Below are positions 26,383 to 30,266 of a stretch of 64,000 bases of DNA, one piece after another; positions within the stretch are counted from its first letter, which is position 1; the number at the start of each line of letters is the position of its first letter. Source of the DNA: Sulfurimonas marina (GTDB taxonomy: Bacteria; Campylobacterota; Campylobacteria; Campylobacterales; Sulfurimonadaceae). The notes beneath the pieces are model-generated. The model did not search any database. It had not been told where the DNA came from and saw nothing but the letters and a program-made list of their open reading frames with translations. The stretch covers positions 62,001-126,000 of the forward strand of contig NZ_CP041165.1 of assembly GCF_014905095.1 (NCBI RefSeq), in the 5' to 3' direction. Made by a program: the position numbers and the translations under genes.

Positions 26383-28209
26383 TTAGTATCTATAACTTAC
26401 ACCGAGATATGTGCTTCTCTGGGCTGTTGCATACCCGTCAACCACTTGATAATCAGTATCTGCTATATTATCGACTTTGAAGTAAGTTGTAAAGTTTTTG
26501 TCTATTTTGTAATTTGCTACGAAATTTACCAGAGTATAGTAGCCTGTTTGTACCCCCTGGTTATTGTCTCTGTCAAAACGTGAACCGATATACTCCCCGT
26601 CAACTCCAAGTTGCAGTTTTTGCGTCGGATAGTATGCAAATGCAAATTTAATCGTATCCTGCGGTCTTCTTCTTAAAGCCTCTTTATCTTCGTTCTTTGC
26701 ATCGAGGTAGGTATAACTGATATCTGCTAAGATCTCATCTGTAAGGTACTCTTTGTATCCAAGCTCAAAACCTTTGAGAATAGAAGTACCTTGAATGTTA
26801 TTGTATTTACTGATCGTAAAATCATAGTCGATCATGTTTTTTACTCTGTTATAAAAGTAAGTCGCTTTAAACCCTTTGTACTCAATTGTCGCATCGAAAG
26901 ATGTCGTATCTTCGGGTTTGAGGTTTTCATTTCCGTAGTATGAGTAGAGGTTGTAGAGAGTAGGAACATTATACGCTGAACCGATATTTGTAGAGAATGA
27001 GAGAGTTTTATATTTTTTAGAGTTGTATTTTACCCCCGCTTTTCCCGTTGTTTTATCATCAAACATATCGTAGTGATCGTAACGCAGCGCTTCAGTCAAG
27101 ATAATTTCGCCACTGTCGATTTTAAAAATATTTGAGTTTGTGATCGTACCTGCCTGGTTTTTATACTTTTCATTTAGAGCATTTTCATGCTCAAACGTTT
27201 TATAATCAAATGCAATTAGTACAAAATCTTTCTCATCATAGCCGATTTTTGAATTTGCTCCATATTCATAGACACTCCCGTTATAGTGAGAAGTTGGATT
27301 GTCTGTCAGATATTGTCTGTTAAATATTGAACGTTTTGCATAGAGTTTAAACTCGTTAAAACTGTCAATATGATTGAAATTGATCTGTCCGAATGAATCG
27401 TGTGTTTCATCTTCACCGTATTTATTTGCTTCGATTGTATCGTTAGAATCGTAAGGATCGTACTCTGAATAGGCATCAATGCGAGTATAAGAGAAGTCAA
27501 CTTTATTTGTCTCATTAATTTGAAAACCGAGCTTTAGATCAGATGTGATGTTCTTATAGCCGTCAGCTTCATAGTCATCTACATTTTCGCCCTTTGGTAC
27601 TTTTGTTGAAAAACCGTCACTTGTAAGGAGCTGCGAAGCTGCTTTTACATAGTAAGTGTCAGTTTTGTAAGAGAGGTTCAGGGCGTGTTTTTGCGTGTTG
27701 TAGTTGCCGTATTCTACATCAGCACCTGCATGGAACCCTTTTTCTGCCGACTTTGTGATGATGTTGATAACACCCGCACTTGCATCAGCTCCCCAGATAC
27801 CGGATTGTGCCCCTTTGATCACTTCGATTCTCTCAATATCGGAGATCATTAAATGTCCAAAAGGTGCACCGTCAAGTCCTGTTAAGTCGTTGTAACGGAT
27901 TCCGTCTATTAAAACTAAAACTCTTTTAGAATCAAAACCTCTAAGATAAACAGAGGTTGCTTTTCCGAGTCCGCCGTTGCTTGAAAAATTGATCCCTGAG
28001 AGAGAGTTTAGCGCTTGTGTGACGGTTGTAAAACGGCGTTCTTCGATCTCTTCAGCTGTGATCACCTCAGTATTTGCCGTGACGTCATGAAGTTTTTGAT
28101 CAGTATTGGCCACAGATGTAACTGTGATAGATTCTAGGTTTATATCTTGAGCGTTTAGTTGGCTTGTTAAAGCGATACATAGTAGTGATAGTTGTAGTTT
28201 TTTTTGCAT
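26383..28209 (-). CDS. btuB: TonB-dependent outer-membrane receptor, BtuB-like
   Basis: A 608-residue outer-membrane receptor. Signal peptide residues 1-20 (ends LNA) are followed by a TonB-box-like ESITVTSV. The plug domain spans about 40-155 and includes TQALNSLSGINF, VLVLIDGIRYND and DIERIEVIKGAQSGIWGADASAGVINIIT. A 22-stranded barrel ends in Tyr-Arg-Tyr. Length and plug are close to BtuB. It is the first of the btuB-F-D-C string and is followed by cbiA and bluB, so B12 or a corrinoid precursor is the likely ligand. I see no consensus B12 riboswitch in its leader. Confidence 0.87.
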   Translation of the reverse strand: MQKKLQLSLLCIALTSQLNAQDINLESITVTSVANTDQKLHDVTANTEVITAEEIEERRFTTVTQALNSLSGINFSSNGGLGKATSVYLRGFDSKRVLVLIDGIRYNDLTGLDGAPFGHLMISDIERIEVIKGAQSGIWGADASAGVINIITKSAEKGFHAGADVEYGNYNTQKHALNLSYKTDTYYVKAASQLLTSDGFSTKVPKGENVDDYEADGYKNITSDLKLGFQINETNKVDFSYTRIDAYSEYDPYDSNDTIEANKYGEDETHDSFGQINFNHIDSFNEFKLYAKRSIFNRQYLTDNPTSHYNGSVYEYGANSKIGYDEKDFVLIAFDYKTFEHENALNEKYKNQAGTITNSNIFKIDSGEIILTEALRYDHYDMFDDKTTGKAGVKYNSKKYKTLSFSTNIGSAYNVPTLYNLYSYYGNENLKPEDTTSFDATIEYKGFKATYFYNRVKNMIDYDFTISKYNNIQGTSILKGFELGYKEYLTDEILADISYTYLDAKNEDKEALRRRPQDTIKFAFAYYPTQKLQLGVDGEYIGSRFDRDNNQGVQTGYYTLVNFVANYKIDKNFTTYFKVDNIADTDYQVVDGYATAQRSTYLGVSYRY

Positions 28210-28251: not shown

Positions 28252-28317
28252 CAGTAAAATCTGATTTATTTCCGGCTACACATTTTGCAAATGTGTGCTC
28301 GTCAATAAGATTTTCTG
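28252..28317. repeat. Structured element copy A (two-stem motif)
   Basis: On the plus strand, CAGTAAAATCT (28252-28262) pairs with AGATTTTCTG (28308-28317) as an outer stem with one bulged T. An inner perfect 8-bp hairpin is ACACATTT-TGC-AAATGTGT (28278-28296). The single-stranded flanks CCGGCT (28272-28277) and TCGTCAA are identical to copy B at 29870-29934. It lies between the 51-residue open frame and btuB. Which strand is functional is unknown. Confidence 0.6.
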
Positions 28318-28320
28318 CGC

Positions 28321-28476
28321 CTAGAATGCAGGAGGAGAGGCGATTTGTACACGTAAGGGTTTCCCGTTTAGCGTACAAACAGAAGAAACAAGAGCAATGA
28401 TCTTCAGCTGTGATATGTATGCTTGAATCGCTGCTAATGTAAAATAGTTTTTACCAAAGCCTTTAGGTCTATACAT
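28321..28476 (-). CDS. Possible 51-residue protein upstream of btuB
   Basis: An ATG at 28474-28476, preceded by GAGGAGGGAGCT, an unusually strong ribosome binding site. It opens a frame encoding a short N-terminal basic part (MYRPKGFGKNYF), a hydrophobic middle (IIALVSSVC) and the tail PLRVQIASPPAF. The tail recalls the ..R.PP.. endings of small DUF2946-type proteins often found before TonB receptors, but this is only a resemblance. It could also be a leader peptide controlling btuB, which begins 112 bases downstream. The other parts of the 28210-28532 gap hold structured element A and promoter-like AT-rich sequence. Confidence 0.45.
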   Translation of the reverse strand: MYRPKGFGKNYFTLAAIQAYISQLKIIALVSSVCTLNGKPLRVQIASPPAF

Positions 28477-28532
28477 AGCTCCCTCCTCATTGTTTTTCGA
28501 ATTATAACGAAAATCTTCGCTAAAATGTCATT

Positions 28533-29861
28533 ATGAAATTATCGCACCTCAAGCAGATCGTAGAGTATCTCAAACAATTTAAAAAAATAGCAGCTATCCA
28601 TCGTGTGAACGACACAATTATCAAGATCGCTTTTGACAGAGATGATGAGATCTATTTTAATATGACCCGTTCAAACTCCAGCATTTTTAAATGTAAAGAG
28701 TACCCTAGAAGTAAGGTTTATAACGCTCCTTTTGACGTTATCCTTGCAAAACGGTTTAACCGCTCAAACATTTTAGGTGTAGAACTACTTAATGATGACA
28801 AAATTATCCGTTTTAAAACATCGATTGCTTCAGCATATAAAGAAGAACTCACTTATCTGCAGCTAGAATTTACAGGAAAATACACCAATATCATCGTTTT
28901 AGATGAGAATAATATTGTTTTAGAGGCACTGCGACATATTGACCTTTTCTCATCATTCCGTGAAGTAAGAGTGGGGCAAAAACTTCTAGATATTCCACAG
29001 GCACCGTTTATTGCAAAAGAGTATCCGATTGAGGATGTAGAGAGCTTTTTATATGGAGTGTACAATAAAGAACAAGAGCAAAAATTAGCATCTTTGAAAA
29101 AACAAAAGATCAGCTCTTTAGAGAAAAAACTCAAAAAACTTGAAAAGCTTTATAAAAAACTTGACTCTGAAGAACTTTTGCAGGCTCAGGCAAGTGAGTT
29201 TGAACATCTGGGGAACTTGGTTCTTGCCAATGCGCAAAACATCAAGCCTTATGTGAAAAAACTAGAGCTTAACGATTATGACGGAAGTGTCAAAGAGGTA
29301 GTTTTAGAGAAGCAGTATCCAAATGCATTTTTAATCAGCGAATCGTTCTTTACAAAGAGTAAAAAAGCGAAGCAAAGAGCAAGACATCTTCACATTGAAG
29401 AGGAGTCTTTAAGAAGCAAGATAGAGCATACAAAACTCTTTATCAATACCGTTGCCGAAGCAAAAGATACGGCAAAAATAGAGTTGCTCTTTCCAAAACA
29501 GATACAAAACAAAAAGATAAAAAAAGATGAATCTATCGAGACTTTTTGGATCGAGGGTTATAAAGTGCAGTTGGGGAAAAATGAAAAGGGTAATATCAAG
29601 CTGTTAGAGAGTGCTAAAGCAAAAGATATCTGGCTCCATTTAAAAGAGAGACCTTCAACTCATGTTATAATAACTACAGATAAACAAAGTCTTCCTGAGC
29701 GGATCATTAAATCGGCGGCAAGATTATGCGTAGATTTCTCAACCGCTTCAAAAGATAAGTTTTTGGTCGATTATACTCCTCGTAGGGAAGTAAACATCCA
29801 AAAGGGGGCAAATGTTCTCTACAATAAGTATAAAACGGTAGAGATAGATACTCGAGAATAA
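28533..29861 (+). CDS. NFACT family protein (RqcH/FbpA-like, DUF814)
   Basis: A 442-residue protein with an N-terminal NFACT-N domain (about 1-170, including TRSNSSIFKCKEYPR and YLQLEFTGKYTNIIVLDE), a Lys-rich helical coiled-coil (about 185-225) and a C-terminal NFACT-R/DUF814 domain (about 315-430, including ETFWIEGYKVQLGKNEKGN and DIWLHLKERPSTHVII). In bacteria with full RqcH (about 560 residues) the protein adds alanine tails to stalled nascent chains; this version is shorter. The older label fibronectin-binding protein comes from Gram-positive homologs. The order NFACT-small protein-cdsA-dxr-...-tsaD is conserved in Campylobacter (Cj1349-Cj1344). It is bracketed by structured elements A and B. 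Confidence 0.9.
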   Translation: MKLSHLKQIVEYLKQFKKIAAIHRVNDTIIKIAFDRDDEIYFNMTRSNSSIFKCKEYPRSKVYNAPFDVILAKRFNRSNILGVELLNDDKIIRFKTSIASAYKEELTYLQLEFTGKYTNIIVLDENNIVLEALRHIDLFSSFREVRVGQKLLDIPQAPFIAKEYPIEDVESFLYGVYNKEQEQKLASLKKQKISSLEKKLKKLEKLYKKLDSEELLQAQASEFEHLGNLVLANAQNIKPYVKKLELNDYDGSVKEVVLEKQYPNAFLISESFFTKSKKAKQRARHLHIEEESLRSKIEHTKLFINTVAEAKDTAKIELLFPKQIQNKKIKKDESIETFWIEGYKVQLGKNEKGNIKLLESAKAKDIWLHLKERPSTHVIITTDKQSLPERIIKSAARLCVDFSTASKDKFLVDYTPRREVNIQKGANVLYNKYKTVEIDTRE

Positions 29862-29869
29862 TGATTATA

Positions 29870-29934
29870 CTGAGAATTTTATTCTTTTCCGGCTACACAT
29901 TCTTAAAATATGTGTTCGTCAAAGAGATTCTCAG
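29870..29934. repeat. Structured element copy B (two-stem motif)
   Basis: CTGAGAAT (29870-29877) pairs perfectly with ATTCTCAG (29927-29934) as the outer stem. The inner hairpin is ACACAT (29895-29900) with ATGTGT (29910-29915). The flanks CCGGCT (29889-29894) and TCGTCAA (29916-29922) match copy A. The outer-stem bases differ from copy A yet still pair. In the plus direction it forms the 5' leader of the small acidic protein gene, ending beside its AGGAAAGGAG site, so it could control translation. Confidence 0.6.
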
Positions 29935-29954
29935 CAGGAAAGGAGACCTTTCAC

Positions 29955-30266
29955 ATGGCAGTTGGACCGATAGGAAACGCAATCTTTGTCAATCAGATGA
30001 CACCGGCAGCGACTACTGTGCAAAATGCACACAATAATCGTGTGGACTTTCAAAATATGATTGCCCAGTCTCAAGTACAAGATAAAGAAAAAGAGGTACT
30101 TGAAGTACGTCCTACAGAAGAGAATCAAGCAGTTGATCCCGATCGCGAACATACAAAAGAGGAAGCGGATCAACAAAATAAAAGAAGTGAAAAACGTCTA
30201 ATAGAGGATGAGGAAGAGGAAGAAACATCACCACCTCCAATCCATAAATTAGATATTAAAGTGTGA
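29955..30266 (+). CDS. Small acidic/charged protein conserved between NFACT and cdsA
   Basis: A 103-residue protein of unknown function. The ATG at 29955 is chosen because GGAAAGGAG lies 8-9 bases upstream; an in-frame upstream ATG at 29910 falls inside structured element B. The N-terminal 35 residues are hydrophobic and polar (AVGPIGNAIFVNQMTPAATT). The rest is highly charged with runs of Glu/Lys/Arg and the poly-acidic EDEEEEETSPPP, suggesting a disordered or coiled protein. There is no signal peptide or TM helix. Campylobacter has a coiled-coil protein gene at the same place (Cj1348). Confidence 0.75.
   Translation: MAVGPIGNAIFVNQMTPAATTVQNAHNNRVDFQNMIAQSQVQDKEKEVLEVRPTEENQAVDPDREHTKEEADQQNKRSEKRLIEDEEEEETSPPPIHKLDIKV

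Follow-up and report, generated by a model that had tools for sequence, protein, structure and literature searches.

A dispersed hairpin repeat of Sulfurimonas with covarying stems, very probably mobile and often placed just before Shine-Dalgarno sites

The window analyzed here, a 64,000-nt stretch of Sulfurimonas marina contig NZ_CP041165.1, holds two direct copies of a short structured element, one on each side of an NFACT-like gene (28533-29861, forward strand; the names of this open reading frame and of the btuB-like one come from an earlier reading). Copy A, 66 nt long (28252-28317, forward), lies upstream of a btuB-like gene (26383-28209, reverse) in antisense orientation, and begins directly past the stop of a conserved 51-aa ORF (MYRPKGFGKNYFTLAAIQAYISQ...; 28321-28476, reverse) that runs in the same direction as btuB. 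Copy B, 65 nt long (29870-29934, forward), is directly followed by the ribosome-binding site and start codon (29938-29957, forward) of a small acidic protein gene, with AAGGAG at 29940-29945 and the start codon at 29955-29957. The original prediction had put the end of copy B beside this ribosome-binding site, as we find it, and copy A between the 51-aa ORF and btuB; copy A is in fact antisense to both, and only copy B stands in sense before a gene.

The NFACT-like gene is unrelated to the hairpin element; its orthologues, present in 113 of the 120 genus genomes, were used for locating orthologous sites. The 51-aa ORF between btuB and NFACT has a strong ribosome-binding site, and DNA resembling it occupies the same place in loci L371, L372, L379, L382, L392, L393 and L396 and in genomes G047, G129, G158, G037, G009, G033 and G125. 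Because similar DNA recurs at the same place in the loci of seven relatives, the ORF is probably a real gene. The small acidic protein (MAVGPIGNAIFVNQMTPA...; 29955-30266, forward) is encoded 3' of NFACT in most of the Sulfurimonas loci read. In other species, further unrelated insertions, some of them repeated, follow the NFACT stop (L379, L380, L382, L384, L387, L388), which makes the junction look like a hot spot for repeats of the intercistronic kind.

The conserved plan, somewhat more elaborate than the original prediction had it, begins with an outer stem, whose 5' strand is followed by a 4-nt bulge; then come a 4-bp inner helix, an asymmetric core and, at the tip, a terminal hairpin. 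In the core, TTCCGGCTA stands opposite GCTCGTCAA, with four base pairs between them and two single-T bulges offset from each other; the terminal hairpin varies among copies in both sequence and length. Most elements are 63-72 nt long, with consensus ends AG[AT]GTAAATCT...AGATTTACACT. In copy A, the outer stem (28252-28262/28308-28317) encloses the bulge GATT (28263-28266), the inner helix TATT/AATA (28267-28270/28304-28307), the core TTCCGGCT / GCTCGTCAA (28270-28277 / 28297-28305) and the terminal hairpin ACACATTT/AAATGTGT (28278-28285/28289-28296). Copy B has the outer stem CTGAGAAT/ATTCTCAG (29870-29877/29927-29934), the core TTCCGGCT / TCGTCAA (29887-29894 / 29916-29922) and the terminal hairpin ACACAT/ATGTGT (29895-29900/29910-29915). 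Both copies are thus present on the strand originally given, each with CCGGCT, ACACAT/ATGTGT, TCGTCAA and an outer stem, and the claim that the outer stems are unlike in sequence yet both paired, as expected of compensatory change, is borne out. Folds of both strands of both copies were all below those of shuffled sequences, whether computed as RNA (z from -2.2 to -5.4) or as DNA (z from -2.4 to -5.1).

The pattern CCGGCT-N10-40-CGTCAA was found twice in the window against an expectation of 0.05. By pattern, the source genome has a third copy and its relatives have more, among them an orthologue of the third (L011, in G047). A covariance model built from eight copies was then run on genomes of the genus, family and order; copies A and B match it at 74.7 and 77.1 bits. 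Once duplicates were removed, 100 matches were left, with up to 21 per genome and 8-9 in the source genome. Carriers number 19 of the 120 genus genomes and 21 of the 228 Sulfurimonadaceae genomes, all of them Sulfurimonas (one of 18 genera) and including Sulfurimonas sp. NORP168 and Candidatus Sulfurimonas ponti. With the same model, the element was not found in the 17 other Sulfurimonadaceae genera among the 228 family genomes, nor was any copy seen outside Sulfurimonas in a 299-genome sample of Campylobacterales. Rfam gave no match at its gathering score and only chance matches below it, in agreement with the original failure to recognize a known riboswitch. Plasmid and phage BLAST gave short chance matches only. 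Initial pattern scans of the genome and viral collections lacked stringency, most of their matches being due to chance; a stricter pattern search of the viral collections found no copies. One candidate copy, L003, was rejected as a chance match inside pgk. The open-access papers searched contained no description of such a repeat in Sulfurimonas or Epsilonproteobacteria; RepRanger gives repeat counts for S. gotlandica in a table only (PMC12306157).

That the structure is maintained, as the original prediction had proposed, is confirmed by strong covariation across some 100 copies. In an alignment of all matches, which was fitted to the covariance model and hence favours structure, and in which a few copies appear a second time as read on the reverse strand, 91.5% of paired cells can pair, 24 of the 26 pairs show change on both sides, and 393 cells carry double changes, where shuffles gave 112 and sliding of the partners no more than 74. 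The eight founding copies, aligned by themselves, show the same pattern. The 4-bp helix between the two asymmetric loops covaries too. The 5' bulge is exactly 4 nt long in 88 of the 103 alignment rows, and both single-base bulges are T in 100-101 of the 103. Departures from the usual core also occur. At L333:1470-1538 (G120), the 3' core has been swapped for the exact complement of the 5' core, while the orthologue L037 has a normal core; the change was probably made by quasipalindrome (template-switch) correction. At one site shared by three species (L352, L361, L364), in the ruvB-permease gap directly 5' of the ATG, the core has the variant form TCGGGCTA/GCTCC; this is likely an old fixed copy.

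The element is very probably a mobile repeat. The site of copy B is empty in G047, where NFACT is 98.6% identical, in G129 and in the other NFACT loci read, so copy B was most likely inserted in the source lineage. Copy A is common to the source genome and G047 (L312), with two compensatory double changes, and is absent from the site in G129. A search with the joined flanks of ten other copies revealed filled and empty orthologous sites for L316, L369, L309, L305 and L047, as well as copies shared between relatives (L311/L310, L315/L308) and, for L314/L401, a truncated remnant in the source genome (G000). In having sites that are filled in some relatives and empty in others, this short non-autonomous insertion is like a MITE. 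Tandem arrays also exist, of three copies 74 bp apart in L324 (G063) and of two copies in L057 (G051).

In joined-flank alignments the net insert varies in length and is longer than the hairpin, the surplus being about 4 to 19 nt or more. Direct repeats of 4-5 bp flank a minority of copies (for example ACTTT, GCTTC; ATAAC/ATAAA). Flanks of 5 bp are exactly repeated in 5 cases against 0.45 expected, and at least four of the five positions are identical in 16 against 4.1 expected (maximum 11 in 2000 shuffles), counts that take in some related copies, such as the three tandem copies in L324. Exact identity of 2-bp flanks occurs in 8 cases against 14.7 expected, which gives no sign of a TA duplication. 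Some copies are older: at the uvrB-dedA and spoT-tyrS sites, and at that of copy A, the element has been kept at one site across species with its fold held by compensatory double changes. Because orthologous copies keep the fold in this way, there is room for use after insertion. The compensatory changes at conserved sites suggest that some selection has acted after insertion, which pure mobility would not predict, and the older, site-stable copies may have a use as well, for instance as mRNA hairpins between cistrons.

Among 94 copies with clear neighbours, as judged from approximate gene calls by simple ORF rules, 62 lie in sense and 16 in antisense between co-directional genes, 10 between convergent genes and 6 between divergent genes. 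The ratio of 62:16 between co-directional genes (n = 78) becomes 51:14 in the non-redundant set (p = 4e-6). Sense copies usually end 2-6 nt 5' of the Shine-Dalgarno of unrelated housekeeping genes, and in 50 of the 51 sense copies with a recognizable Shine-Dalgarno and start, 10-24 nt separate the element from the start codon. A Shine-Dalgarno-like motif occurs within 14 nt on the right side in 40 of 53 cases (2-8 in control windows), mostly at about +3 to +7; unexpectedly, one also occurs within 14 nt on the left in 17 of 53 (1-4 in control windows), at -10 to -5. Four copies, before trpC-, purA-, truD- and pgk-like genes (L326, L321, L047 and L335), have the left motif only. In these the hairpin separates the Shine-Dalgarno from the start codon, and ribosomes must either get past it or begin translation in some other way. 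The motifs suggest, without proving it, that insertion duplicates the Shine-Dalgarno motif and that one copy later decays. The downstream genes, which from reading their sequences we take to be dedA, tyrS, ridA, truD, asd, nuoA, purA, rpsP, infA, pgk, clpB, der and others, have no functional theme.

The way in which pairs break bears on whether the structure is kept as DNA or as RNA. Were a transcript under selection, G.U pairs would be expected to be tolerated and A.C pairs not. Among the broken inner-stem pairs of all copies, 47 are A.C and 32 G.U, and in 61 sense copies the counts are 29 and 20, a comparison possibly diluted by decaying copies; by contrast, three stems of 31 tRNAs from the same genome, used as a control, have 38 G.U and 2 A.C. 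Because A.C breaks are as frequent as G.U, we consider it rather probable that what is conserved is a hairpin of DNA and not of RNA. Strong selection on the opposite transcript is disfavoured too, since neither strand has an excess of G.U. The mismatch spectrum agrees better with a DNA hairpin, or with a mutational correction of palindromes, than with RNA.

We think it likely that these copies form a new, genus-restricted family of short non-autonomous mobile DNA hairpins, REP- or MITE-like, whose asymmetric core is conserved. They would be moved by a recombinase or transposase whose gene lies elsewhere, and this enzyme would recognize the core TTCCGGCTA/GCTCGTCAA and the shape of the folded DNA, single-stranded or cruciform. 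Insertion would be into A/G-rich intercistronic stretches, and a retained or duplicated Shine-Dalgarno would keep the downstream gene translated. We infer that a recombinase acting on the folded strand is most likely. The Y1 transposase (PF01797) is absent from G000, G047, G129, G002 and G026, all carriers, and present in 8 of the 19 carriers; because carriers of about 99% completeness, the source genome among them, lack it, the mover is not a resident Y1 transposase. Searches of limited sensitivity found no helper gene and no larger element with the same ends, and no half-elements were seen. Candidates for longer elements with the same left end were rejected, as none of the 11 extra matches had the remainder of the element and all resemble chance matches. 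In four genomes, inverted pairs of ends were about as numerous as in a reversed-pattern control, with no obvious close pairs among the matches listed. A bolder and rather doubtful version sees the element as selfish DNA, a hairpin with ribosome-binding sites as its homing target, inserting by a Shine-Dalgarno and leaving one on each side at least early on. It would then spread at low cost through operons of essential genes, moved by an enzyme that reads DNA shape.

The sense bias and the position 2-6 nt 5' of the Shine-Dalgarno, together with the fold held at orthologous sites by compensatory double changes, are what one would expect if the element were a cis-acting RNA (a riboswitch-like leader, a protein-binding site, or an mRNA stabilizer or processing site) under selection for what it does to the downstream gene, with mobility secondary. 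However, the downstream genes lack a common theme, antisense and convergent copies exist, the same genes occur in close relatives without the element, G.U pairs are not in excess and Rfam is silent, so we regard this as unlikely. A riboswitch in particular is improbable because the sense copies precede the Shine-Dalgarno of unrelated housekeeping genes; neither a consistent orientation nor functionally linked downstream genes were found. The original prediction had offered a riboswitch-like leader, an sRNA or a dispersed structured repeat. The last of these stands; the leader fails on the unrelated genes, the two orientations, the empty sites and the missing G.U excess. Intrinsic terminators or attenuators that share sequence by chance would also be hairpins in intergenic regions, but the stem has no T-run on its 3' side and sits just 5' of Shine-Dalgarno sites, and a conserved asymmetric core and recent insertions speak against them as well. 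This explanation, which the original prediction had named as one that could undo it, is scarcely credible.

The covariation might instead be mainly mutational, produced by quasipalindrome correction in a decaying MITE under no structural selection. L333, with its normally built orthologue L037, is a visible case of such correction, and A.C and G.U mismatches are tolerated alike. Correction thus occurs, yet it leaves the constant bulges unexplained: it would erase both the 4-nt bulge and the single-base pair of bulges, but these persist in most copies, and the 4-bp helix between the asymmetric loops covaries as well. We therefore find this reading quite improbable. Very improbable is an integron attC-type single-strand recombination site, or a REP element moved by a RAYT. 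Their architecture is similar, with a variable terminal hairpin, extrahelical bases and a folded single strand, and with dispersed palindromes, but five carriers are without Y1 transposase, and the two window copies have neither an attC R-box nor a REP foot.

A family of mobile DNA hairpins would be of interest in several respects. Here, in a natural example, the types of broken pairs allow one to argue that a covarying hairpin is kept up at the level of DNA rather than RNA, a warning to pipelines for which covariation proves that an RNA is functional. Targeting of Shine-Dalgarno sites, if true, would show how a mobile element can safely enter operons of essential genes. The family is also a compact system for seeking a hairpin-recognizing recombinase in Campylobacterota.

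Among known systems, riboswitches and ribosomal-protein leaders are likewise structured elements before a ribosome-binding site, but the Sulfurimonas element is mobile, occurs in both orientations, and has no gene theme and no Rfam match. Integron attC sites have an R-box of the form GTTRRRY / RYYYAAC; inspection of the two window copies revealed none, no cassettes were seen, and the resemblance lies only in the folded strand, the variable end loop and the extrahelical bases. With the ERIC, Correia and NEMIS MITEs the element has in common that it is a palindromic non-autonomous insertion, present or absent between relatives. Unlike these, it has no TA duplication, its stems vary by compensation rather than being fixed terminal repeats, and we found no parent insertion sequence or autonomous transposon with the same ends, in a search of limited sensitivity. 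REP elements are palindromes of 20-40 nt with a GTAG/CTAG foot. Like REP and BIME sequences with their RAYT (IS200/IS605-like Y1) transposases, the element is a short dispersed extragenic palindrome, sometimes in tandem, for which structure is central; it differs in being about 70 bp long without that foot, in its long covarying stem and internal asymmetric core, in its sense bias before Shine-Dalgarno sites and in the lack of a Y1 transposase in several carriers. REP and MITE elements are thus its nearest kinds, with a common size class, dispersal and palindromy, and it is set apart from them by having no known transposase, by its covarying stems and fixed asymmetric core, and by its site before the Shine-Dalgarno.
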